40,622 bases of DNA from Lachnospiraceae bacterium (GTDB lineage: Bacteria > Bacillota > Clostridia > Lachnospirales > Lachnospiraceae), in the NCBI GenBank assembly GCA_022510605.1, contig JAFLTB010000019.1, positions 1 through 40,622 of the forward strand, in the 5' to 3' direction. Below are positions 3,893 through 14,006 of the stretch, piece by piece. Position numbers and translations under genes: made by a program. The first letter of the stretch is position 1. The number at the start of each line of letters is the position of its first letter. The notes under the pieces were generated by a model that was not told the origin of the DNA, ran no database searches, and was given only the letters and a program-made list of their open reading frames with translations.

Positions 3893-4528
3893 TCATTTTT
3901 TACAACCTTGAATGGTTTCTTCGCAAAGTTCACTGTCCTTTGCCTCTAACACTATATCCGTTTCATATTTTGCAGTCTCTTCTTTGTCCATGATTCCCTC
4001 TGACACCGCCTGCTCTAAATAGTTTTCCGCAAATATACCATAATTTTTAATTTCTTTTTTTTTCACGGTATCCGTTTTATCAGATTTTATGATGGCCGCC
4101 AGTTCCTGGTCTACATTGGCAACTTCTTTTTTCCATACCTGCCAGCATTCTTCACCATTTACCGCTCCATCATTGGAATTCTCCAGAATTTTTGTTCCTG
4201 TAATTTCTTCCAGCGCAATGACTGCCAGATATTGCTGCAAACCACCGGGTACTGTATCCTCATTCATCGCTTCTACAATAACAGGAACCGCCTCCATTCC
4301 AAGAGAGACTAATGACTTGTAGGCCTCTGTCTCCCGGTACAGATATGGATTTGACTGTGCCATCAAGAGGGGATCCGTTTCTAACTCAGAATCCAGTAAT
4401 GCAAATTTATCCTCCACCTGCTCTGCCATGGATACTGTTGATTCTCTGTTTAGCCCAATCACAAGGGAAACAGCGACTATCGCTACAATCAGAATACCTC
4501 CTGTAATAAAAATACCTTTCTTTTTCAT
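3893..4528 (-). CDS. Membrane-anchored protein of unknown function with a helical-repeat-like segment
   Basis: I do not recognise a named family. The 211-aa product starts with KKK and one hydrophobic segment (about residues 5-25), so it is either anchored in the membrane by its N terminus or secreted; no lipobox Cys is visible. The rest is acidic and probably helical. Residues around 75-120 (LGMEAVPVIVEAMNED... followed by AVIALEEITGTKI) have the spacing of a HEAT-like helical pair. Two cysteines lie close together near the C terminus (CEETIQGC). An AGGAGG is well placed before the ATG. It starts 56 nt after the stop of the upstream secreted-protein gene on the same strand and probably shares its transcript. 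Confidence 0.75.
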   Translation of the reverse strand: MKKKGIFITGGILIVAIVAVSLVIGLNRESTVSMAEQVEDKFALLDSELETDPLLMAQSNPYLYRETEAYKSLVSLGMEAVPVIVEAMNEDTVPGGLQQYLAVIALEEITGTKILENSNDGAVNGEECWQVWKKEVANVDQELAAIIKSDKTDTVKKKEIKNYGIFAENYLEQAVSEGIMDKEETAKYETDIVLEAKDSELCEETIQGCKK

Positions 4529-4584: not shown

Positions 4585-5220
4585 TTACTTCGTACTATGG
4601 ACATATGAAGTCGAACATACACCAAGCAGAGAGCCATAGGCTGAAGTGAATGGTGAATAGTTGGTGTTGGTATATAGTGAACCAGCCCCCCACTTTGATA
4701 TAATAGCAACACCACTTAACGCATTTCCGCCAAGCGTCGTGTGCCTGGCAAAATGTAAAACATTGCTGCTATCTGTACCATATATATAAATAATATCACC
4801 ACTTGCACGTAAATAATTAGAAGGTTCAAAAAAATAAGTATATCCGTTTTTACTTAGATAGGCTTTTACGTCCGTAAGAGATGCTTTGTTACCCCATTCC
4901 TGTGGCCAGTCCCATGAGTTGACGAAATTCTTTTTTAACGCATATGCCAGACAATTATAGTCCGTATATCCGCGTTTATAAAAAACAGCTGCAGAACTAA
5001 TGGCATTTTTATGTGTTGTACAAAATTTAATCCCATACTGCCTGTAATAACCCATTTCATCCTTTGAATAGGACGTGTCATATTTTATTGTTTCAGCACA
5101 TTTTGAACATGAAGGATTCGCTCTGCGATATACAAAGGCCTTACTTTCCTGATTTAGAAACCAAAACGAAAAAACTGGAATTAATACGAATATAATAACT
5201 CTTTGCATGACTTTTATCAT
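4585..5220 (-). CDS. Secreted Cys/His protein, DUF7689-like
   Basis: The 211-aa product has a signal peptide (hydrophobic stretch at about residues 5-22, then a polar region). The mature part contains NCLAYAL (Cys90), a WDWPQEWG stretch, a GYT segment, HFARH (His156, His160) and ISKWGAG. That order of Cys, His and the SKWG motif matches small exported proteins I remember as DUF7689, whose fold resembles NlpC/P60-like Cys-His hydrolases. A hydrolase role is inference. Four further cysteines (CSKC near residue 38, CTTH near 67, a C-terminal one) may form disulfides or bind a metal. The ATG at 5220 follows GGGGG; a second ATG four codons later is possible. It has its own promoter at 5265-5293. 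Confidence 0.75.
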   Translation of the reverse strand: MIKVMQRVIIFVLIPVFSFWFLNQESKAFVYRRANPSCSKCAETIKYDTSYSKDEMGYYRQYGIKFCTTHKNAISSAAVFYKRGYTDYNCLAYALKKNFVNSWDWPQEWGNKASLTDVKAYLSKNGYTYFFEPSNYLRASGDIIYIYGTDSSNVLHFARHTTLGGNALSGVAIISKWGAGSLYTNTNYSPFTSAYGSLLGVCSTSYVHSTK

Positions 5221-5319: not shown

Positions 5320-6270
5320 TTATGTAAATTCTTTTTTAAGCCTTTCCATAAAAGACCGTTCCTCTTTTATGGCTTCCACTGCCATTTTATACAGGGTTTG
5401 TTTCAGATACTCCGTTTTCTTTCGATTGTATTCAATTCCAGTAATCAAGATACTACGGAAGTTTTTTTCAAGATGATGAACTTGATTGATAAATTGACTA
5501 TTCTCCTTTATAAAATGATTTTGCATTAAAAAATTAAGACGCTTCCCCATAATTTTCTTATGTTCAAACATGCAATACAGAGATGGATAATGCAAATACT
5601 CCTTTGTCAGCATCATCTCAAAAAATATTTCTTCCGCTTTTATGTTGTATATTTTATTGCAAACAGTTTCTTGCAGGAACTCACACATTGCTGTTTTCAT
5701 TTTGTCAAAATCAAATTCCCATTTGTAATTTTCTACCACTTTATAACCAATAAAAGCTATTTCTCCTTTTTCCGGGAAATATGATAGTGCCTGATAAAAT
5801 ACATCAAAGGGAACCGTAAACCTTTCCCATTTTTCACTTGTCACATATCCCTGTGAATAAAACATCTTTCTCCCACTGTCATATCCGTAAATAAAGCATC
5901 CATGCTCATAAATCCCCGTATACTCCTCTCCCGTAAGATAACTAAAAACAACGTTTTCATCCCATAACGCAAAAAAATATTCTCCATTCTCTAACATCTG
6001 TATAACCACATCACAAATATATTCCTGGGAACATGCACCAATGGGAATTTGTGTAAAGGATTTAATAAATACTCCCTCTCCTGGAATAAAATCATAATAG
6101 TCATAGTCCGCATATTTTATGTGACCATCCTCTGGTGTATATTCCAGTCTTATATATTTATCATATATCCAGCCGGACCCAAAAGCCAAATCATCAATCA
6201 CACTAAAACAAAAAGCATCTCCCAGATACGTCCGTATAGAGGGTTCTACATTTTTTAATATTTTCTGCAT
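5320..6270 (-). CDS. BtrH/papain-like-fold protein of unknown function, copy 1
   Basis: A 316-aa cytoplasmic protein without signal peptide or membrane segment. Residues about 85-170 read like the second half of BtrH N-terminal (C39/papain-like) domains: a strand pair ending in ALWDENVVF, then EHGCFIYGYDSGRKMFYSQ and a VPFDVFYQAL helix. In BtrH, known from butirosin synthesis, this domain moves an acyl group from an acyl carrier protein to an amine. The N-terminal nucleophile expected in active members is not obvious here, while the H of EHGCFIYGYD is in the expected place. The C-terminal third is helical. It is clearly related to the gene just upstream (6300-7133), and the two are 29 nt apart. 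The BtrH link is recognition by pattern and is tentative. Confidence 0.6.
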   Translation of the reverse strand: MQKILKNVEPSIRTYLGDAFCFSVIDDLAFGSGWIYDKYIRLEYTPEDGHIKYADYDYYDFIPGEGVFIKSFTQIPIGACSQEYICDVVIQMLENGEYFFALWDENVVFSYLTGEEYTGIYEHGCFIYGYDSGRKMFYSQGYVTSEKWERFTVPFDVFYQALSYFPEKGEIAFIGYKVVENYKWEFDFDKMKTAMCEFLQETVCNKIYNIKAEEIFFEMMLTKEYLHYPSLYCMFEHKKIMGKRLNFLMQNHFIKENSQFINQVHHLEKNFRSILITGIEYNRKKTEYLKQTLYKMAVEAIKEERSFMERLKKEFT

Positions 6271-6299
6271 TCCTGTATAGTCCTTTCCATCGTTTTACA

Positions 6300-7133
6300 T
6301 TATGATTTAATGGATGTAATAAACCAAAGGCACAGATGATTATAAGTTCTTATCATATCTTTCAGATTCCTTTTTAAATTGGAACTATTTTCTTGCTTTC
6401 CTTTTAATTCCAGCACCTTTTTTATTATTTCATCATTCTTCAACATTCCCTTCCTCTTCATAAAAGCCAGTCGTTCCAAAAATACGTCCCTCCACTCCTG
6501 TAACACACATAGAGAATGTTTTTGTTGTTCCTCATTCATTCTGTTTATAAAAAATCCAGCTTTCCAGTTGCTGATTTCTGCTCTTTCAAAATTCCCCTTA
6601 ATTATTTCCAAATCCCATTGTTTCTCGAACTCCCCTCTCATGAAAAGCATATCGAAACGGAGATTTGCTTCGGATTTTTGTGGCATTAAAATTTTATCAT
6701 AATACTCTGCAAATTCCGTCTGATAATAACGTACTTTATCCTTATCATTCCAACAACAAAATTTAATAATATGACCTTCTTTATCATAATCATACAAAAG
6801 CAGGTACGGCTTGAAAGCCTCTCCTCGAAAAGTAAAATTCTCTAAATAATTGACAACATAATATTTTTTATCCAAATATCCTGTAAGAAAATCATATATC
6901 TGCTGCATTGTTGTATATTCTCTCCAGGGATATTCAAAGTAACGTTTTAACAGGATACCATATTCCCAAAACATACGATAATCCTCAAACGAAAAAACAC
7001 CTGCCTTTTTATCCATTGTTACATTACAGAAGAAATTATATATCCATCCCGTCTGATACATCTCCTCCGGTACTATCATCTGACTAATGGAAGCCATCAC
7101 TGTGCTTTCTATAATAGGTGTATGAATCTGCAT
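6300..7133 (-). CDS. BtrH-like protein of unknown function, copy 2
   Basis: A 277-aa soluble protein related to its downstream neighbour. The shared features, in order, are TGWIYN near residue 30 (GSGWIYD in the neighbour), a DY...F...G segment, LKRYFEYP (IKSFTQIP), QQIYDFLTGYLD (EYICDVVIQMLE), YLENFTF (WDENVVF), and a strand LLLYDYDKEG (CFIYGYDSG) followed by an F/Y-rich helix. The His present before that strand in copy 1 is replaced here, so this copy may lack catalysis and act as a partner subunit, though that is inference. A gap of 42 nt separates it from the broken LRR gene upstream. AAGGAAAAG precedes the ATG. No closer family name can be given. Confidence 0.6.
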   Translation of the reverse strand: MQIHTPIIESTVMASISQMIVPEEMYQTGWIYNFFCNVTMDKKAGVFSFEDYRMFWEYGILLKRYFEYPWREYTTMQQIYDFLTGYLDKKYYVVNYLENFTFRGEAFKPYLLLYDYDKEGHIIKFCCWNDKDKVRYYQTEFAEYYDKILMPQKSEANLRFDMLFMRGEFEKQWDLEIIKGNFERAEISNWKAGFFINRMNEEQQKHSLCVLQEWRDVFLERLAFMKRKGMLKNDEIIKKVLELKGKQENSSNLKRNLKDMIRTYNHLCLWFITSIKS

Positions 7134-7175
7134 TACTTTTCCTTTCGTTTTTCATGTTTGCAAGTTTATTTTCTA

Positions 7176-7532
7176 TCAACTTTCTTCCTTATATTTTGCA
7201 CAGAGCGCATGACCGCTGTCCTGTCCCGGGGAATCTTCCTGCCGTCTTGCTCCCACTTCTACTATCCGGTATCCCTGTATCCTTAAAGGAATAATTAAAT
7301 TTTTTTCCTCTAATACCAAAGAGCGCAGACGGATAGAATCGTTCCCCCTCATTTCATATTCAATGTATAAATATTTTACCCCTTCAATAACAAGATTCCT
7401 GAGACTGTATACTCCGTTTACTGGCATAACTGTCGTCGAGACTGGTGGTGTCTGCATCCCATTTTCTGTCACTGCTTGAGTTGTCACTGCATCACCTGTT
7501 TGATTTTGTTCTATCCTTTCCTTTTCCCACAT
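7176..7532 (-). pseudogene. Truncated, probably frameshifted copy of the LRR protein gene (pre-repeat region only)
   Basis: The 118-aa frame holds a Thr/Val-rich linker and then residues 53-94, which align with residues 62-103 of the LRR protein at 7778-9022 (18 of 41 identical by my count, including YIEYE/YVEYE, IRLR/IRLR and IP...GY...E.G). The leucine-rich repeats that should follow are absent and the frame ends after 24 unrelated residues. The ATG at 7532 lacks a good ribosome binding site. In another frame directly upstream (about 7597-7511) a hydrophobic run ends in LTAC followed by GKRKG, which looks like a lipoprotein signal with a lipobox and then stops. One frameshift would join the two. 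I read this as a decayed gene, but a short functional protein is possible. Confidence 0.55.
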
Positions 7533-7632
7533 GCTGTCAATATTTCAATAAAAATAATAATATTAATGAATCTCCATATTTTCCTAATACTCTTCCATCA
7601 TACAATATATAATAATACTATTTTGTACCAGC

Positions 7633-7679
7633 ACTTGGACTATAACTGTAATCCCCAAATTGTTGACTTGCACTATAAC
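7633..7679. repeat. 14-bp direct repeat, 33-bp period
   Basis: ACTTGGACTATAAC (7633-7646) and ACTTGCACTATAAC (7666-7679) differ at one base and sit three helical turns apart in the 245-bp gap between the LRR gene and its broken copy. The spacing would suit paired binding of a regulator. Apart from this and the degenerate leader, I see nothing in the gap. Confidence 0.5.
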
Positions 7680-7777
7680 CCTCTACTACCATTACATAGA
7701 CACTAATGCTTGCCCCTTTTTCCAGCTTACAGCAATCTTACAAGGTAAACAAACTCCTTCTAAGTTTATACCTTACC

Positions 7778-9022
7778 CTATGTCTCCAACAACTTCACTT
7801 TTCCCTTTTCAAATATCTGAATCCGATATGCCGTGGCTTTCGTATCCTCTATGGGATTATAATTCTCCGTACCATCATCCTCTTTTAATATTTTTAACCC
7901 TTTTTTCGTAAATTTTTTAATGCATATGGCCTTCTTTGCATAACGGGCTGCTTTCGAATTTTTTGGGGCAATTATTTTGTTTACCGTGATAAAATCATAT
8001 TTCCATTTTCCGTTCCTGGCACGGTATTTATTTCCCCGTACACTTGTATTAGCATCCTGAAACTCCAATGTAGTAACACTTTTCGCATAATTCTCTGCAC
8101 ATGGAGTACTCTGGTATGTCACCAGCCCTGTTCCTTTCGGAAATACAAGTTTATGGAGTTTTCCGCACCCGATAAACATATTGTGTCCAATGTAAATATG
8201 TTTCTGGTTTTTAGGGAATTCTACCTTTTTAAGATTTCTGCAATCCGCAAATACAGATGATTCAATGCATTTTTCAACACGGCCGGCAATGCGGGGCCAT
8301 TTAATTTCCTTTATACCTGTTCCCGCAAAACAGCTACCTTCCAAACGTCCTTTCATCTTTTTGGGTAATTTTATTTCTTTCAGATGACTGCATGCACCGA
8401 ACGCATCTGGTCCAACAACAACCTTTTCATTCTGTAACCGAATTTTTTTCAGATTCTGGCAGTCGTAAAATGCCCCATACCCAATTTCTTCTACCCAATC
8501 CAGATTTATTTTTTGTAATGTGCAGTTATCACCACTAAATGCAAAATCTCCAATGTATCTCAACGATTTTGGCAATATCACCTCTGACACATCCATTGAA
8601 TAGAAGGCATGATCCTTAATGGTCCGGACTCCTTTGCCGATAACTACTTTTTTCACTTTTTTGCCTCTGGTTATATTTACATATTTTCCCTCTATATCGG
8701 ATTCTGTATCTTTTCCCAGTTCCTCTACTTTATAGCCATCCAGTTCCGATGGTATCACAAGAACCTTATCCTGTGGTACTATGTATCTCAATCGTATCAC
8801 GCCCGGACGAATCTTTTCATATTCAACATAGCGATAGGTTCTTTTTTTAATAACGACATTTTTTTGGGTAACCACGACCTTACTGCTTTTTTCCTCCTGC
8901 TGATACAAATCTTTTTTTATGTCAGTTGAAGTGGAATGCCCCTTTATCTGGGTGTTGAGCACCATCAATAAACTACTTACAACCAGCAAAAATCCAACTA
9001 TTTGATATTTTTTTATTTTCAT
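7778..9022 (-). CDS. Exported BspA-type leucine-rich-repeat protein
   Basis: The 414-aa product begins with a lysine-rich start and a hydrophobic segment (about residues 7-26), so it is exported or N-terminally anchored. After a polar linker comes the domain at about 60-103 ending in VIPSELDGYKVEELG, the usual entry to LRR_5 repeats. Repeats of the form I...AF..C..LK.I.LP follow from about 130 to 310 (for example YGAFYDCQNLKKIRL, DAFGACSHLKEIKLP, SVFADCRNLKKVEFP). Such BspA-like proteins generally bind other proteins or host surfaces. No cell-wall anchor or dockerin is visible. It starts 14 nt after the subtilase stop, so the two are co-transcribed and possibly work together outside the cell. 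Confidence 0.85.
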   Translation of the reverse strand: MKIKKYQIVGFLLVVSSLLMVLNTQIKGHSTSTDIKKDLYQQEEKSSKVVVTQKNVVIKKRTYRYVEYEKIRPGVIRLRYIVPQDKVLVIPSELDGYKVEELGKDTESDIEGKYVNITRGKKVKKVVIGKGVRTIKDHAFYSMDVSEVILPKSLRYIGDFAFSGDNCTLQKINLDWVEEIGYGAFYDCQNLKKIRLQNEKVVVGPDAFGACSHLKEIKLPKKMKGRLEGSCFAGTGIKEIKWPRIAGRVEKCIESSVFADCRNLKKVEFPKNQKHIYIGHNMFIGCGKLHKLVFPKGTGLVTYQSTPCAENYAKSVTTLEFQDANTSVRGNKYRARNGKWKYDFITVNKIIAPKNSKAARYAKKAICIKKFTKKGLKILKEDDGTENYNPIEDTKATAYRIQIFEKGKVKLLET

Positions 9023-9036
9023 TCCTGTCCCTCCTG

Positions 9037-11052
9037 CTATTTAGTACTTACATTATAATTATATGCCGCATATGGCTGTGCCGCCACAGAACCTGCCACA
9101 GTTGTTATATAAGCACTTATATTTCTCAACTTGTAGACATACTGTCCCATCACCGTACTGAATTCATTATATGTACCACCAGTATACTTATTATTATATA
9201 CATCCAGAGATTTTTTCACTGCTGCTTTGGCATTGTCAAATCTGGGCTTATATTTCTCAGGATCATCTGCCACATCATATCCCTTCCCATCCTCATGAGC
9301 CAGATGATGCCAGCCGCTGCTATCATGTACATAAGCACTATGTGCATATGTATCTGCCAATGTATGGATTCCCATTCCCCATACAAAAGCACGCCTTCTC
9401 CCTGCCGTAGGTTCTTTCCCATTTAATACTTCTGAATGTTTCCATCCCACAACATTACCAATTGCATTGACATCCGAAAGCATATCCGTAGCATAAGTGC
9501 ATCCGGATGGTATAGGAGCATCATGAGGCATCTTCCCTTGCCCTATTGCGTTTGCCATATTAGTCGCATAGATATAAGCTGCCACATAATTATTGGACTG
9601 CTGATATGTGCCATGCCACCAGGGATTATGTGATATTTTCGCAAACATATACTTTCCATATGTATCGACAAAAGAAGTCTTGTCAGGAAAACGTGCTCCC
9701 GCCTTTACATTCGCATAATCACTTCCTACCATATCTCCATGTTTCGTCATCTCCCAACTTCCTTCAACACATCCTGTGTCTTCAAAGGCAATGACTTCAC
9801 TCTCATTTTTTACATCACCACCCTCAACTTTTCCTTTCTCATATCTGGCTTTTAATTCATGGTAATTTGTCAGGATATATTCAGCATCAATTAATCCGTT
9901 TCCATATGCTTCTTTTTCCCCATAAGAGTTTGCACCTTCGTTTATCACCCACCGTACAAAGTTTGCTGACATGCCCAAATCCTTCTGCCAGATCAATGAA
10001 GCGATTGCACTAACCTGTGGTGCTGCAAGACTGGTTCCTGACGTTACTAACTGGTTACCGAATGTGCCGGTTGTCCGAACCAGTTCTCCAGGCGCCACAA
10101 TCTCAATCTCCGGCCCTCTGGCACTACTTTGTGCCGCTTCGCCCATTTTATCCACAGACCCTACTGCCATCACTTCCTCATAGGCCGCCGGGTATTGAAC
10201 TCCTCTCTCTCCTGTGTTACCTGCGGATGCAACAATCATGATTCCGGCGTCCGCTGCATCCTGAATGGCTTTTTCCAAAGCCTCTGAATATATATCCATT
10301 CCAAAACTCATATTAATAATATTGACACCTTTATCCATTGCCATGTAAATCCCTTCAATCACCCGACTCACCGGAGCCCGGTTATTATCATCCAGTACAC
10401 GTATTGAGTATAATTCTACATTCGGATTAATCCCTGTAATTCCTTCTCCATTGTCTTCTGCAGCAATCAATCCTGCCACGCCATTCCCATGTCCACTTCC
10501 ATCCATAAACAAAGGTGACATCTCCTCTTCCCCGGGCACTAACGTAATTGTACCTGCCAGTTCAATATCATTTCCATAATCTACGCCAGAATCAATCACT
10601 GCTATTTTTACTTTTTCTTTCTTACTTTTTGCCTTTTTTCCAGTCGCCTTAATCATACGGATATTCCATTCGGTGCCGCTTTTATTTTTCTTGTATTTGT
10701 TTACTTTCTTCTCGTGGTATTTACTCCCCTCTACATACCGATCTTCTTCTACAAACAGTACATCTCCGTCATTTTTTAATTCGTTCGCCTCTCCTTCTGT
10801 CAATTTCACTGCCAGCATTTCATTTTCTTTCATCTTCCCCTGGCTGTACCTGTTGATCTCTCCCGAATCTTCATATTGTTTTTCAAAGCCAGCTAAAGGT
10901 TTTACTGTTTTTGTTCCTATGATATAATTCTTTTCCTGTGGGATTGTCGCTACTTTCCTCGGTTTTGCGTAGGAATCCGTAACAATCCCCGCATGAGAAT
11001 AATAAAAAACAAGTGAAACCGCTGTTACAAACACAACTATTTTTCTTACCAT
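9037..11052 (-). CDS. Exported subtilisin-like serine protease with a C-terminal phospholipase-C-like helical domain
   Basis: The ATG at 11052 (671 aa) is preferred over an upstream one because GGAAGGAG precedes it and it overlaps the upstream stop as ATGGTAA. Residues 1-28 form a signal peptide and 40-108 resemble an inhibitor I9 propeptide (ending FVEEDRYVEG). The peptidase S8 core carries the triad Asp154 (AVIDSG), His188 (GHGNGVAG) and Ser341 (GTSLAAPQV), with Asn279 as oxyanion residue; LAAPQV replaces the usual MAAPHV. From about residue 430 a second domain contains GMGIHTLADTYAHSAYVH, close to the H...D..AHS metal-binding pattern of zinc-dependent phospholipase C and DUF6765-like proteins. 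I do not know this fusion. It is embedded in an operon with an acyl carrier protein, which is unexpected for a plain scavenging protease. Confidence 0.88.
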   Translation of the reverse strand: MVRKIVVFVTAVSLVFYYSHAGIVTDSYAKPRKVATIPQEKNYIIGTKTVKPLAGFEKQYEDSGEINRYSQGKMKENEMLAVKLTEGEANELKNDGDVLFVEEDRYVEGSKYHEKKVNKYKKNKSGTEWNIRMIKATGKKAKSKKEKVKIAVIDSGVDYGNDIELAGTITLVPGEEEMSPLFMDGSGHGNGVAGLIAAEDNGEGITGINPNVELYSIRVLDDNNRAPVSRVIEGIYMAMDKGVNIINMSFGMDIYSEALEKAIQDAADAGIMIVASAGNTGERGVQYPAAYEEVMAVGSVDKMGEAAQSSARGPEIEIVAPGELVRTTGTFGNQLVTSGTSLAAPQVSAIASLIWQKDLGMSANFVRWVINEGANSYGEKEAYGNGLIDAEYILTNYHELKARYEKGKVEGGDVKNESEVIAFEDTGCVEGSWEMTKHGDMVGSDYANVKAGARFPDKTSFVDTYGKYMFAKISHNPWWHGTYQQSNNYVAAYIYATNMANAIGQGKMPHDAPIPSGCTYATDMLSDVNAIGNVVGWKHSEVLNGKEPTAGRRRAFVWGMGIHTLADTYAHSAYVHDSSGWHHLAHEDGKGYDVADDPEKYKPRFDNAKAAVKKSLDVYNNKYTGGTYNEFSTVMGQYVYKLRNISAYITTVAGSVAAQPYAAYNYNVSTK

Positions 11053-12266
11053 ATTTTTTCTCCTTCCTTTACTTTTGACGTAAACCATGCCATTTTTCCT
11101 GTTTTTTCACTTGGTACAAGATGATGGCAGAAGTAAAAATGAAAATTACGATTCTGTGTAAAGATTCCTAACATTTCTTTCAATAAGCCCGCAATCTCCT
11201 TCTTATTTTCCTCCTCATCAACTACCAAATATATCTCAAAATCAGAGTAGTCAGTTTGTACTATCTGATACTGGACAATACTTCCCTCCTGGATTAAGTT
11301 TACCTTTTCAATTCCGTTAGCAAAAATATCTGCATGAAGTCTGCTTCCATCCTCATTATAGATAAAATCATTATCCCGGGCAGAAGCCAGTTCAATTATG
11401 GGAGCCCCGTTACCACAGGGACAGGAATGATTTTTATGTAATATCCCTATATCTCCAATGCCGTATCGGACAAAAGGCATAACCCTGTTATGCAAAGAAG
11501 TAAGATAAATTTCCCCCTTTTTATCTGTTACAGATTCTCCCCTTTCATTTAACGTTTCCACATATACATTTTCTGTCACAATGTGCATATGCCCACAAGG
11601 GCATTCATAGGCAATACTGTTTACCTCATAACAGCCATATTGACTTACCACTGGACATCTAAAAAAATCTCTCATTTTTTCCTGCAGTTTTGGGGGTATT
11701 CTCTCACCAGTCAATTCAATATACTGCAATGAAGAGATTGGCGGCATATCATACCTGGTTCCAATATCCATTAAAACTGCTCCCATGCTGGGCTGTAATA
11801 TCATCCATTTGGGCTTGAATTCTATTATTTTTCTATAAATCTCCTGAATTCTATTTTCCGACATATCAAATTTGGAAAAGCCCAGGCCTCTTTCTGTCCT
11901 TTCCTCTGTTTGTTCCTGATTATTTATTATTTTAGTGGTAAAGAAATAACATCTTCTATCGTCCGGCTTAATTCCATAATATTTTCTTCTTAACTCCCAC
12001 AAGGGAATTAAAGACTTTCGATTATGAATTTTTGACCAGTAAATTTCCATACACTGTCCCGTAGAGCCAGAAGTCATAACATATTCCAGTTTTCCGCTCA
12101 AGTAATCCATCATGTACCGGGGAGCCATATTCAGATTTATTCCTGCCCTCATCATTTCCTTACTAATTAACGGATATTCTTCCCATTTTTCTGGTATATC
12201 CATTATTTGATTCTGATAAAATGGTACATTCTGATAAGCGTATTCGGCTATTTGTAAATGTTTCAA
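11046..12266 (-). CDS. PaaK / coenzyme F390 synthetase-like adenylate-forming ligase
   Basis: Family members activate a carboxylic acid with ATP as an acyl-AMP and pass it to a thiol such as CoA or a carrier protein. The 406-aa product shows the P-loop TSGSTGQ near residue 65, an acid-activating YGCYEVNS segment near 208, and FVRYGIGDIG near 268. It also has the Cys pairs typical of the PaaK-like branch (ECPCGHMH and SCPCGNG), which probably bind a metal. The start is TTG, 10 nt after the ACP stop and preceded by AGGAGG. The stop overlaps the subtilase ATG, indicating translational coupling. The substrate is unknown; loading the neighbouring ACP is the natural guess. No aminoacyl or aryl specificity can be read from the sequence. 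Confidence 0.85.
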   Translation of the reverse strand: MKHLQIAEYAYQNVPFYQNQIMDIPEKWEEYPLISKEMMRAGINLNMAPRYMMDYLSGKLEYVMTSGSTGQCMEIYWSKIHNRKSLIPLWELRRKYYGIKPDDRRCYFFTTKIINNQEQTEERTERGLGFSKFDMSENRIQEIYRKIIEFKPKWMILQPSMGAVLMDIGTRYDMPPISSLQYIELTGERIPPKLQEKMRDFFRCPVVSQYGCYEVNSIAYECPCGHMHIVTENVYVETLNERGESVTDKKGEIYLTSLHNRVMPFVRYGIGDIGILHKNHSCPCGNGAPIIELASARDNDFIYNEDGSRLHADIFANGIEKVNLIQEGSIVQYQIVQTDYSDFEIYLVVDEEENKKEIAGLLKEMLGIFTQNRNFHFYFCHHLVPSEKTGKMAWFTSKVKEGEKIW

Positions 12267-12276
12267 AACATTCCTC

Positions 12277-12534
12277 CTACTGTTTTTCCTTTGCTATTAA
12301 TTCAGCAATATATTCTATAAAGCCAGTCATGCAATCCAACTGTTCCAATAACGTCTCATAATCTTTGAATTCAATTCCAAACTGTTCTTCTATTTCAGAA
12401 AACAGTTCAATAATCTGTATGGAATCAAAATCCAAATCTTCTAGTAAAGATTCTTCACCGGTTAATGCTTCCCTTTTTTCTTCACCTAAAAATTGAACGA
12501 TCCGTTCATATATCTTTTCCTCAATCTGTTTCAT
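12277..12534 (-). CDS. Acyl/peptidyl carrier protein
   Basis: An 85-aa acidic protein with the carrier motif DLDFDSIQIIEL. Ser38 is the expected phosphopantetheine attachment site, and the predicted four-helix layout and length are normal for ACPs. The ATG at 12534 is chosen because GGGGAG lies just upstream; this start overlaps the end of the ligase gene by 14 nt. The motif DFDS in place of DSLD/DSLE, and its position between two adenylate-forming ligases, mark it as a specialised carrier rather than the fatty-acid-synthesis AcpP. No KS, KR or other fatty-acid genes are near. The substrate is probably loaded by one of the flanking ligases and passed to an acceptor by a transferase, perhaps the BtrH-like proteins. 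Confidence 0.9.
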   Translation of the reverse strand: MKQIEEKIYERIVQFLGEEKREALTGEESLLEDLDFDSIQIIELFSEIEEQFGIEFKDYETLLEQLDCMTGFIEYIAELIAKEKQ

Positions 12535-13942
12535 ACATTCTCCCCATATGTTTTCCTGCAAAATTTCTTGGACTTTCCTTTACCTCTTTATATATAAAAC
12601 AATGCGCCGTCAGTCCAGTATTATCTGGCAATCCTTCGGACAACCTTTGAATCTGTTCCTTCTTTGCATTTTCACATACCACAATAATTTTATTCTGATA
12701 TTCATAACAATAATTTTTAATTTGATATTCCCTGTCAATTATCTCTGACAGCGCTTGTAAATTGATTCGCCGTCCATAGATTTTTGCAAACCGGGCAATC
12801 CGACCTGTAATATACAGATAACCATCTTTTATATATCCAGTATCGCCCGTGTATAGAAGCCCTCTGTTCTGATTACCCATTTCCAAATCTTCCAAACATT
12901 CCGCATATCCCATACTGACATTGTCACCTTCATATACAATTTCTCCTATGTCCTGCTTACCCACTTGATTCAGTTGTTTCGTGATTGGTCCGGATTGCAC
13001 CATCTCCTGACAGGGAACAATACGAATTTTCCCACCTGGAATAGCGATTCCAACACTGCCCGGTCTTTTCAGTATATCCTCCGGCGGCAAATAACTTATT
13101 CTGGCTGTTGCTTCCGTCTGTCCGTACATTAGAACCATGTTTATCCCATGTTTACAGGCATACCCCCCAAATTTCAACTGTAAATCCACCGGCAGTTTTC
13201 CCCCGGCTTGTGTCATACATTTGAGAAAGGGAAAGTTCTGATGCAAAAATCCTTTTTTTTCCAATAATTCATAGGTATACGGTACACCCGATAGCGATGT
13301 TGCCTGGTATTTCTCAAAAAACTGCCAAAAAGATTTTTGCAAAATACTTTTGGAGGTTAGAAGTATTGTCGCACCAGAATAAAGATGGGTATTTAGCACT
13401 GACAAGCCATACGTATAACTCAGTGGCAGTGTAGTAATTGCTCGTTCGGATTCATTTATTCCCAAATATTCACAGATACTTTTTGTGTTTGACAAAAGGT
13501 TTTCTTTGCTGATACGAACTAATTTAGAAATTCCTGATGTTCCCGATGTGGTAAGAAGAAGGCACAAATCCTTATGTAATTTCACTGGTTTTCTGTCCCT
13601 GCTTTCCAAAAGCCAACGCGAATCTACTTTTACCAGAGTTCGAAAACTATTTTGTGAATCAAATTTTAATTTAGAGGATAATAACACATATTGGGGTTGA
13701 TACTTAGAAAGATACATCTGTACTGTCCCGACATGAATACCGTAATTTAATAAAATCGGCACCACTTTCCGTGACAGGCAGGCAAGATAACATATAATAG
13801 AATCCATATCATTTTTCATCAATATGACTGCGAGAGAGCACTCCTGCAAATTTGCACCAACACGCTTTACCTCCGCTTCCAACTGTTGGTAAGTATATCT
13901 TACTCCTACCTCTGTAATAACAGCTACAGAATCTTCTCGCAT
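12521..13942 (-). CDS. AMP-forming acyl/amino-acid ligase (ANL superfamily)
   Basis: A 473-aa stand-alone adenylation enzyme that activates a carboxylate as an acyl-adenylate and transfers it to a thiol, most simply the ACP encoded next. Motifs in order are the P-loop TTSGTSGISK (about 131-140, with Ser for Thr and Ser-Lys for Pro-Lys), LPLSYTYGL, MYGQTEAT, YTGDTGYIKDGYLYITGR with the following KIYGRRI, and a C-terminal SPRNFAGK in which Lys464 is the expected catalytic lysine. It therefore looks intact and active. Overall style is nearer to NRPS A domains and DltA than to fatty acyl-CoA synthetases, but substrate cannot be called. AGGGGGAAG precedes the ATG, and a strong promoter lies 36 bp upstream, making it the first gene of the accessory operon. 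Confidence 0.88.
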   Translation of the reverse strand: MREDSVAVITEVGVRYTYQQLEAEVKRVGANLQECSLAVILMKNDMDSIICYLACLSRKVVPILLNYGIHVGTVQMYLSKYQPQYVLLSSKLKFDSQNSFRTLVKVDSRWLLESRDRKPVKLHKDLCLLLTTSGTSGISKLVRISKENLLSNTKSICEYLGINESERAITTLPLSYTYGLSVLNTHLYSGATILLTSKSILQKSFWQFFEKYQATSLSGVPYTYELLEKKGFLHQNFPFLKCMTQAGGKLPVDLQLKFGGYACKHGINMVLMYGQTEATARISYLPPEDILKRPGSVGIAIPGGKIRIVPCQEMVQSGPITKQLNQVGKQDIGEIVYEGDNVSMGYAECLEDLEMGNQNRGLLYTGDTGYIKDGYLYITGRIARFAKIYGRRINLQALSEIIDREYQIKNYCYEYQNKIIVVCENAKKEQIQRLSEGLPDNTGLTAHCFIYKEVKESPRNFAGKHMGRMYETD

Positions 13943-13977: not shown

Positions 13978-14006
13978 AATTTACCATAAATGACTATTCC
14001 TGTCAA
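13978..14006 (-). promoter_or_regulatory. Sigma-A promoter of the ligase-ACP-protease operon
   Basis: Minus-strand TTGACA (14001-14006) and TAAATT (13978-13983) with 17-bp spacing. There is no terminator between tenI (stop at 14017) and this promoter, so read-through from the thiazole genes is also possible. Confidence 0.75.

Follow-up and report, generated by a model that had tools for sequence, protein, structure and literature searches.

We analysed a 40,622-nucleotide (nt) stretch of a Lachnospiraceae bacterium (GenBank assembly GCA_022510605.1, contig JAFLTB010000019.1), referred to here as the window. Its minus strand carries a gene block encoding two AMP-forming ligases, an acyl carrier protein (ACP), two proteins resembling the acyltransferase BtrH and several exported proteins. 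Sister loci keep the carrier-protein genes next to exported proteins of varying families, and terminal lysines are enriched among these exported proteins. We tentatively prefer the reading that this carrier-protein-dependent module modifies exported clients at a C-terminal lysine tag, by acylation or another amidation. The features of the block, along the minus strand, are as follows.

13978 to 14006, minus strand: promoter-like -35/-10 elements, TTGACA-17-TAAATT with TG (consensus match 36 nt upstream of the ANL start)
12521 to 13942, minus strand: stand-alone ANL (AMP-forming) ligase, 473 amino acids (aa) (Pfam AMP-binding, E 2.3e-43)
12277 to 12534, minus strand: ACP, 85 aa from ATG, or 94 aa from a TTG at 12561 (PP-binding, E 4.2e-7, above cut-off)
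11046 to 12266, minus strand: PaaK-like AMP ligase, 406 aa, core gene of the module (AMP-binding, E 5e-7)
9037 to 11052 from ATG, minus strand: exported subtilase with a C-terminal helical domain, ending AYNYNVSTK (Peptidase_S8, E 4e-45)
7778 to 9022, minus strand: exported BspA-type leucine-rich repeat (LRR) protein, 414 aa (LRR_5, E 6.7e-40)
7621 to 7707, minus strand: remnant of a second-subtilase C-terminus, ending DYSYSPSAGTK (52% over 29 aa to a subtilase tail of sister locus L083, E 1.6e-4)
7176 to 7532, minus strand: remnant of a second LRR gene, N-terminal part (tblastn with the 7778-9022 protein, E 7e-10)
6300 to 7133, minus strand: BtrH-like protein 2 (Btr2), 277 aa, degenerate partner (hhalign to the group of the 5320-6270 protein, P 96)
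5320 to 6270, minus strand: BtrH-like protein 1 (Btr1), 316 aa, predicted CtaG/CcbD fold (AlphaFold2 model and Foldseek)
4585 to 5220, minus strand: exported DUF7689 protein, ending SYVHSTK (PF24738, E 6.5e-13)
3893 to 4528, minus strand: exported or anchored partner of the DUF7689 protein, 211 aa (adjacent in the window, L094 and L102)

The ten proteins of the block were scanned against Pfam, and NCBIfam was also searched. Pfam matches and coordinates agree with the initial annotation in placing all its named genes in one minus-strand block from 13942 to 5320: ANL ligase, ACP, PaaK-like ligase, subtilase, LRR protein, subtilase and LRR remnants, and the two BtrH-like proteins. The close packing it described is also present. 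The ACP gene overlaps the ANL stop by 14 nt, 10 nt separate the ACP and PaaK-like genes, the subtilase ATG overlaps the PaaK-like stop by 7 nt, and 14 nt lie between the subtilase and LRR genes. The block probably extends to 3893 and includes the DUF7689 gene and its partner, because these also adjoin ACP-PaaK genes in two other loci (L094, L102). As for the proposed promoter, the motif is there, but promoter-like matches in the region were no more frequent than in shuffles (46 versus 38.5, standard deviation 7.3). The broken LRR copy noted earlier is genuine, and the remnant of a second subtilase tail lies directly upstream of it. Locus L083, where gene order is nearly that of the window, has two subtilase-LRR pairs, and the remnants in the window look like a second such pair in decay.

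The PaaK clade is narrowly distributed. At E <= 1e-60, matches were detected in 14 of the 39 genus genomes and in 11 of the 397 family genomes (10 of 334 genera), with four PaaK genes of the clade in the window's genome. In the genome of one cultured relative, one PaaK copy has an in-frame stop and the other is partial. A scan of genome contigs returned mostly PaaK-like genes from other phyla. We examined neighbours within 8 kb on the same strand at 37 PaaK loci, comprising the 36 hand-listed loci used for the tail counts below and L069. An ACP was found in 31, an ANL ligase in 20 and a BtrH-type gene in 26 of these loci, and in four of the six loci lacking an ACP the PaaK gene lies less than 400 bp from a contig end. 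The exported neighbours vary: S8 subtilases with LRR proteins, DUF7689 proteins, Amidase_6 proteins (above cut-off), C10/C39-like proteins (sub-threshold) and families with no credible Pfam match. Several of these cargo families carry no hydrolase signature. By gene content, ACP, PaaK and BtrH-type genes form a portable core with changing exported cargo.

The initial annotation had tied carrier-protein chemistry to the exported protease and LRR protein. Linkage to exported proteins recurs in sister loci of other genomes, but an obligate link between the protease-LRR and ligase genes is rejected, as each also occurs without the other. The subtilase-LRR pair was found without PaaK nearby at many fetched sites, and the ACP-PaaK core was found without S8 at many loci, beside other exported proteins. 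Whether the two gene sets separate in related genomes thus has a mixed answer, and the pair is best described as one of several cargoes.

Terminal lysines were first evident among the subtilases. The 16 family F5 subtilases of the first loci have a variable tail followed by lysine in every case. We compared complete C-termini of S8 proteins with the C-terminal domain, including a chosen part of the unlinked copies and fragments of 65, 109 and 129 aa. Lysine ends all 16 PaaK-linked proteins with this domain at their C-terminus (8 genomes; one is the 65-aa fragment), 13 of 22 unlinked proteins in genomes carrying the PaaK clade, and 2 of 15 in genomes without it. The difference from PaaK-absent genomes is significant for linked proteins (Fisher, p 5e-7) and for unlinked proteins in PaaK genomes (p 0.007). 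Here, linked means present in a named list of PaaK-bearing loci, so that L082 was scored as unlinked despite adjoining an ACP and an ANL gene on a cut contig, and absence means no match at E <= 1e-60. Nine genomes of the absent class were rechecked (G177 and eight of the genus), yielding weak, distant PaaK-like matches in eight and none in G177. On a tree of 50 subtilases the tail state requires 8 changes, at least 7 of them on starred branches, and thus the trait does not reflect one inheritance.

The tendency extends to unrelated cargo. Ends of the type [Ser/Thr/Phe/Tyr]-Lys ([STFY]K) recur in subtilases, DUF7689 proteins, C10/C39-like proteins, amidase_6 proteins and one family without a Pfam match. 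This last family (L093, L109, L207, L209, L210; 22-28% identity to the first row) has a terminal lysine in five of five members, as one of 18 invariant columns. It occurs in 2 of 397 family genomes, both PaaK carriers, and two more broken or partial copies in those genomes do not show the lysine tail. The DUF7689 proteins end in HSTK in the window and in ICYK in both L094 and L102. In the 36 loci, with mechanical gene calls and exported proteins defined by our own hydrophobicity rule rather than SignalP, lysine ends 48 of 124 exported genes in PaaK operons and 13 of 52 elsewhere; for other genes the counts are 25 of 184 and 35 of 207. An earlier filter and locus set gave 38 of 99 exported genes near PaaK versus 17 of 76. 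The [STFY]K ending is found in 30 of 124 exported genes in PaaK operons, 7 of 52 exported genes outside, and 5 of 184 and 3 of 207 other genes. Exported in-operon genes thus compare with all others as 30/124 versus 15/443, or 17/72 versus 11/282 with families collapsed. Of the seven outside cases, six lie near PaaK and belong to S8, F9, DUF7689 or amidase_6, but the mechanical operon rule did not include them.

The enzymes of the core belong to families known from carrier-protein chemistry. The ACP carries the phosphopantetheine serine in a DFDSI motif, as expected of an acyl carrier protein. For the ANL ligase, no cut-off was reached among the 25 NCBIfam families listed of 91. The AMP-binding score of the PaaK-like protein (29.3 bits) is slightly below the Pfam cut-off of 29.9. 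However, T65-S66-G67-G70, D272, R297 and K391 are invariant across 30 aligned sequences, residues that we take to be the ATP-binding loop and late catalytic lysine motifs of PaaK-like ligases. Its nearest solved structures in profile comparison are phenylacetate-CoA ligases, and it scores far under the NCBIfam phenylacetate-CoA ligase family TIGR02155 (32 bits, cut-off 646).

The two BtrH-like proteins are related to each other, as the initial annotation had it. Neither Btr1 nor Btr2 has any Pfam or NCBIfam match, including to BtrH_N. Profile comparison relates both to longer sister-locus proteins (P 99). One of these matches BtrH_N weakly and below threshold; in L078 and L210, BtrH-type proteins exceed the cut-off for this family. 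The AlphaFold2 model of Btr1 (pLDDT 85.8) matched CtaG of closthioamide synthesis best in Foldseek (9qvl, E 2.3e-7, TM 0.60), followed by the AziU2-U3 complex and CcbD (E 1.1e-4). The modelled fold is thus of the papain-like, carrier-dependent amide-synthase type, which bears out the BtrH-like assignment as far as fold is concerned. The Cys-His-Asp site of CtaG (C11, H128 and D144, as read off PDB variant titles) is incomplete in the Btr1 group, which keeps His123 and has no conserved cysteine. Acidic residues are retained besides the histidine. Every aligned member of two other BtrH-type families in the sister loci (F13, n=7; C518, n=3) retains Cys, His and Asp. According to the portions consulted of the relevant papers, CtaG is a peptidyl transferase proposed to shift hydroxybenzoate between carrier proteins (PMC6772006), and BtrH, which has a papain-like domain, transfers acyl groups from an ACP to aminoglycosides (PMC10318531). 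For the Btr1 type, direct attack without an acyl-enzyme intermediate would fit, by analogy with the mechanism discussed in sections of PMC8510554 for His/Asp toxin-activating acyltransferases (TAATs).

We interpret these features as a potential protein-modification module and infer its steps from them. Adenylation of a carboxylic acid and its loading onto the ACP would fall to the PaaK-like ligase, together with the ANL ligase in loci that have one. The BtrH/CtaG/CcbD-fold protein would move the acyl or aminoacyl group off the ACP thioester and onto an amine, probably the epsilon-amine of the very C-terminal lysine of exported clients. The window's clients would be its subtilase, with the tail VSTK, and its DUF7689 protein, with HSTK. 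Modification of the tag would take place in the cytosol, ahead of Sec export, and the group may then anchor or activate the clients outside the cell. The initial annotation had the exported pair processing or displaying the product, which is not supported as stated. The cargo changes while the terminal residue is common and the carrier-protein module constant, which hints at the exported proteins being the substrates instead.

Several results weigh against this interpretation. On the enzyme side, Btr1 lacks the conserved catalytic cysteine and Btr2 also lacks the histidine, and no BtrH-type gene was found within the 8-kb, same-strand neighbourhood of 11 of the 37 PaaK loci. Among the subtilases, nine S8 proteins that are unlinked but come from PaaK genomes have a last residue other than lysine. 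Phylogenetically independent pairs gave no significant association of lysine with PaaK genomes (2.5 in the same direction, 1.0 opposite and 4.5 without difference, of 8) or with linkage (1.4, 0 and 4.5, of 6), a test underpowered by too few independent pairs. In the wider tail counts, exported genes in and outside PaaK operons do not differ significantly for any terminal lysine (p 0.086) or for [STFY]K (p 0.16). The p-values for [STFY]K against all other genes (1.5e-11, and 1e-6 with families collapsed) are too good because the residues at position -2 were picked after the tails had been seen. At least one K-tailed exported gene occurs in 27 of 36 loci, where the outside rate of 25% predicts 18.0, and the resulting P of 5e-5 takes genes as independent although many are homologues; at the in-operon rate of 48/124, 22.2 such loci are expected. 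Individual cases also run counter to it. A DUF7689 fusion ends in VCYK in G177, yet G177 has no PaaK match, and an amidase_6 protein ends in GNK in G034, yet G034 lacks the PaaK clade. A DUF7689 protein of G354 has no terminal lysine, and neither do homologues of some K-tailed cargo (F28 in L085; the L074 relative of the L207 protein).

A small-molecule thiotemplated pathway of the butirosin, closthioamide or celesticetin kind is nearly as likely, given that small molecules are the substrates of the closest fold relatives and that radical SAM proteins and ABC exporters accompany PaaK in some other loci. Here, the ligases would load the ACP, the BtrH-like pair would form an amide, exported hydrolases would mature or cleave the product, and the lysine tails would be incidental. 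Among the fold relatives of Btr1, AziU2-U3 and CcbD are presumably enzymes of small-molecule pathways, judging also from PDB titles, and CtaG acts in one according to the part of PMC6772006 consulted. Several cargo proteins are indeed hydrolases (subtilase, amidase, C10-like), and the radical SAM proteins and ABC exporters of L069, L212 and L215 (L216 by homology) are typical of small-product clusters. Such a pathway would, however, leave unexplained why unrelated exported proteins keep a terminal lysine. It also sits poorly with the cargo families devoid of hydrolase signatures and with the ten scanned window proteins, none of which is a transporter.

Two independent modules lying side by side, an ACP-ligase pathway and a mobile subtilase-LRR pair inserting nearby, are an unlikely arrangement. 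Each part does occur without the other at many sites, and the duplicated, decayed copy of the pair in the window indicates local turnover. The 7-nt overlap of the PaaK stop and subtilase start speaks against such chance proximity, as do the recurrence of the PaaK-subtilase linkage in 8 genomes and the difference in lysine tails between linked S8 proteins and those of PaaK-less genomes. It is more improbable still that terminal lysine is a general trait of secreted proteins in these bacteria with another cause, such as binding of host lysine-binding (kringle) proteins or carboxypeptidase resistance, and that the ligases are uninvolved: exported proteins away from PaaK operons do end in lysine in 13 of 52 cases and G177 has its K-tailed DUF7689 protein without PaaK, but only 2 of 15 S8 paralogues of PaaK-less genomes end in lysine and [STFY]K is rare in other genes (15/443).

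The proposed lysine modification has partial parallels in known systems. With the BtrH, CtaG and CcbD enzymes of butirosin, closthioamide and celesticetin synthesis, the window shares the modelled Btr1 fold and the proximity of a carrier protein and stand-alone ligases; it differs in lacking a conserved catalytic cysteine, in having two related proteins side by side and in the linkage to exported proteins. Short C-terminal signatures on unrelated exported proteins, recognized by dedicated enzymes, are known from LPXTG/sortase and PEP-CTERM/exosortase systems. The likeness lies in this combination of short signature, unrelated exported proteins and dedicated enzyme set. By eye, however, the tails inspected have no hydrophobic anchor, and the window ligases, ACP and BtrH-like proteins look cytosolic; the core signature is a single residue. 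The HlyC/CdiC acyltransferases share the proposed logic of acyl-ACP and a lysine on an exported protein encoded nearby (PMC8510554, in the sections consulted), whereas the window has a dedicated ACP and ligases and the lysine is at the extreme C-terminus. In the same sections, CdiC is described as acylating lysines of the exported CdiA in an acyl-ACP-dependent manner, and the target lysine is substituted where the enzyme is missing.

Other candidates were rejected. The ten scanned proteins gave no TAAT match in Pfam or NCBIfam that would indicate an HlyC-type acyltransferase. Dlt-like D-alanylation also combines an ANL ligase with a small carrier protein, and the similarity to DltA is weak (E 1e-26); the DltA score is 93.5 bits against a cut-off of 476, with no DltB (MBOAT) or DltD match in the ten proteins. 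An exosortase-type EPS ligase scored far under the curated cut-off. A common N-terminal or lipobox signal in the clients was likewise rejected, as by eye a lipoprotein-like appearance is limited to some of the LRR proteins.

The extra domain of the subtilase, also noted in the initial annotation, is real. It spans about 265 aa with 17 invariant columns in 13 sequences and is present in 25 of 39 genomes of the genus. Its best Pfam match is a sub-threshold one to Zn_dep_PLPC (E 0.065). The invariant residues in the window copy (9037-9831, minus strand) include H31, D50, H73, H156, D160, H164 and D189, positions that recall zinc-dependent phospholipases. This metal-enzyme look stays a guess because Foldseek against the PDB gave no significant match (best E 2.8). 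Of the 39 genus genomes, three encode a DUF7689 protein (those of the window, L094 and L102), each with ACP-PaaK nearby. The G177 protein (L292, 1489-2538, minus strand) is a fusion of a partner-like part (29% over 147 aa, E 1e-13) and a DUF7689-like part (36% over 194 aa, E 3e-33).

Several related loci have a different composition. Wider-clade PaaK genes adjoin a radical SAM protein and ABC exporters in L069 (contig C33 of the window's genome), L212 and L215 (by Pfam) and L216 (by homology), an arrangement that looks like a peptide-modification cluster. Other ANL homologues (L072-L073 on contig C39 of the window's genome; L096, L105, L106, L108) lie in clusters where genes from two large families recur. 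In L072, the two proteins scanned are of ketoreductase and KAS III type, and C39 carries several ACPs, so clusters of the L072-L073 type may be type II fatty-acid or polyketide-like. Subtilase-LRR pairs, some without PaaK nearby, lie near a sigma-70-like gene in L087 (by Pfam) and in L252, L257, L258 and L085 (by homology), which suggests regulation of their own. Exported proteins of about 275 aa with no Pfam match, ending in VFK (L097, 16408-17238) and SFK (L099, 13226-14047), adjoin an ABC/FtsX-type gene (by Pfam in L097) and the ACP-PaaK core.

The enzyme families are known, and their combination with exported, lysine-tailed cargo was not found described in the open-access literature, a coverage that omits most subscription journals; this agrees with the initial annotation, which knew of no pathway with this gene set. 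Nor did that search yield a paper on C-terminal lysine tags of such a kind, judged by titles and the opening of abstracts. Even if the product were a small molecule, this carrier-protein locus family was not found described. More boldly, and rather doubtfully, the loci may represent an undescribed class of protein modification, in which an ACP/PaaK/BtrH-type module acylates a C-terminal [Ser/Thr/Phe/Tyr]-Lys tag on unrelated exported proteins. It would be a C-terminal counterpart of lipoprotein and sortase anchoring and may also serve clients encoded elsewhere in the genome. If modification of the lysine tag is correct, thiotemplated enzymes, familiar chiefly from antibiotic synthesis, would here have been redirected to the modification of secreted proteins, and an operon neighbour with a terminal lysine would be a simple sequence rule for predicting clients across the family.

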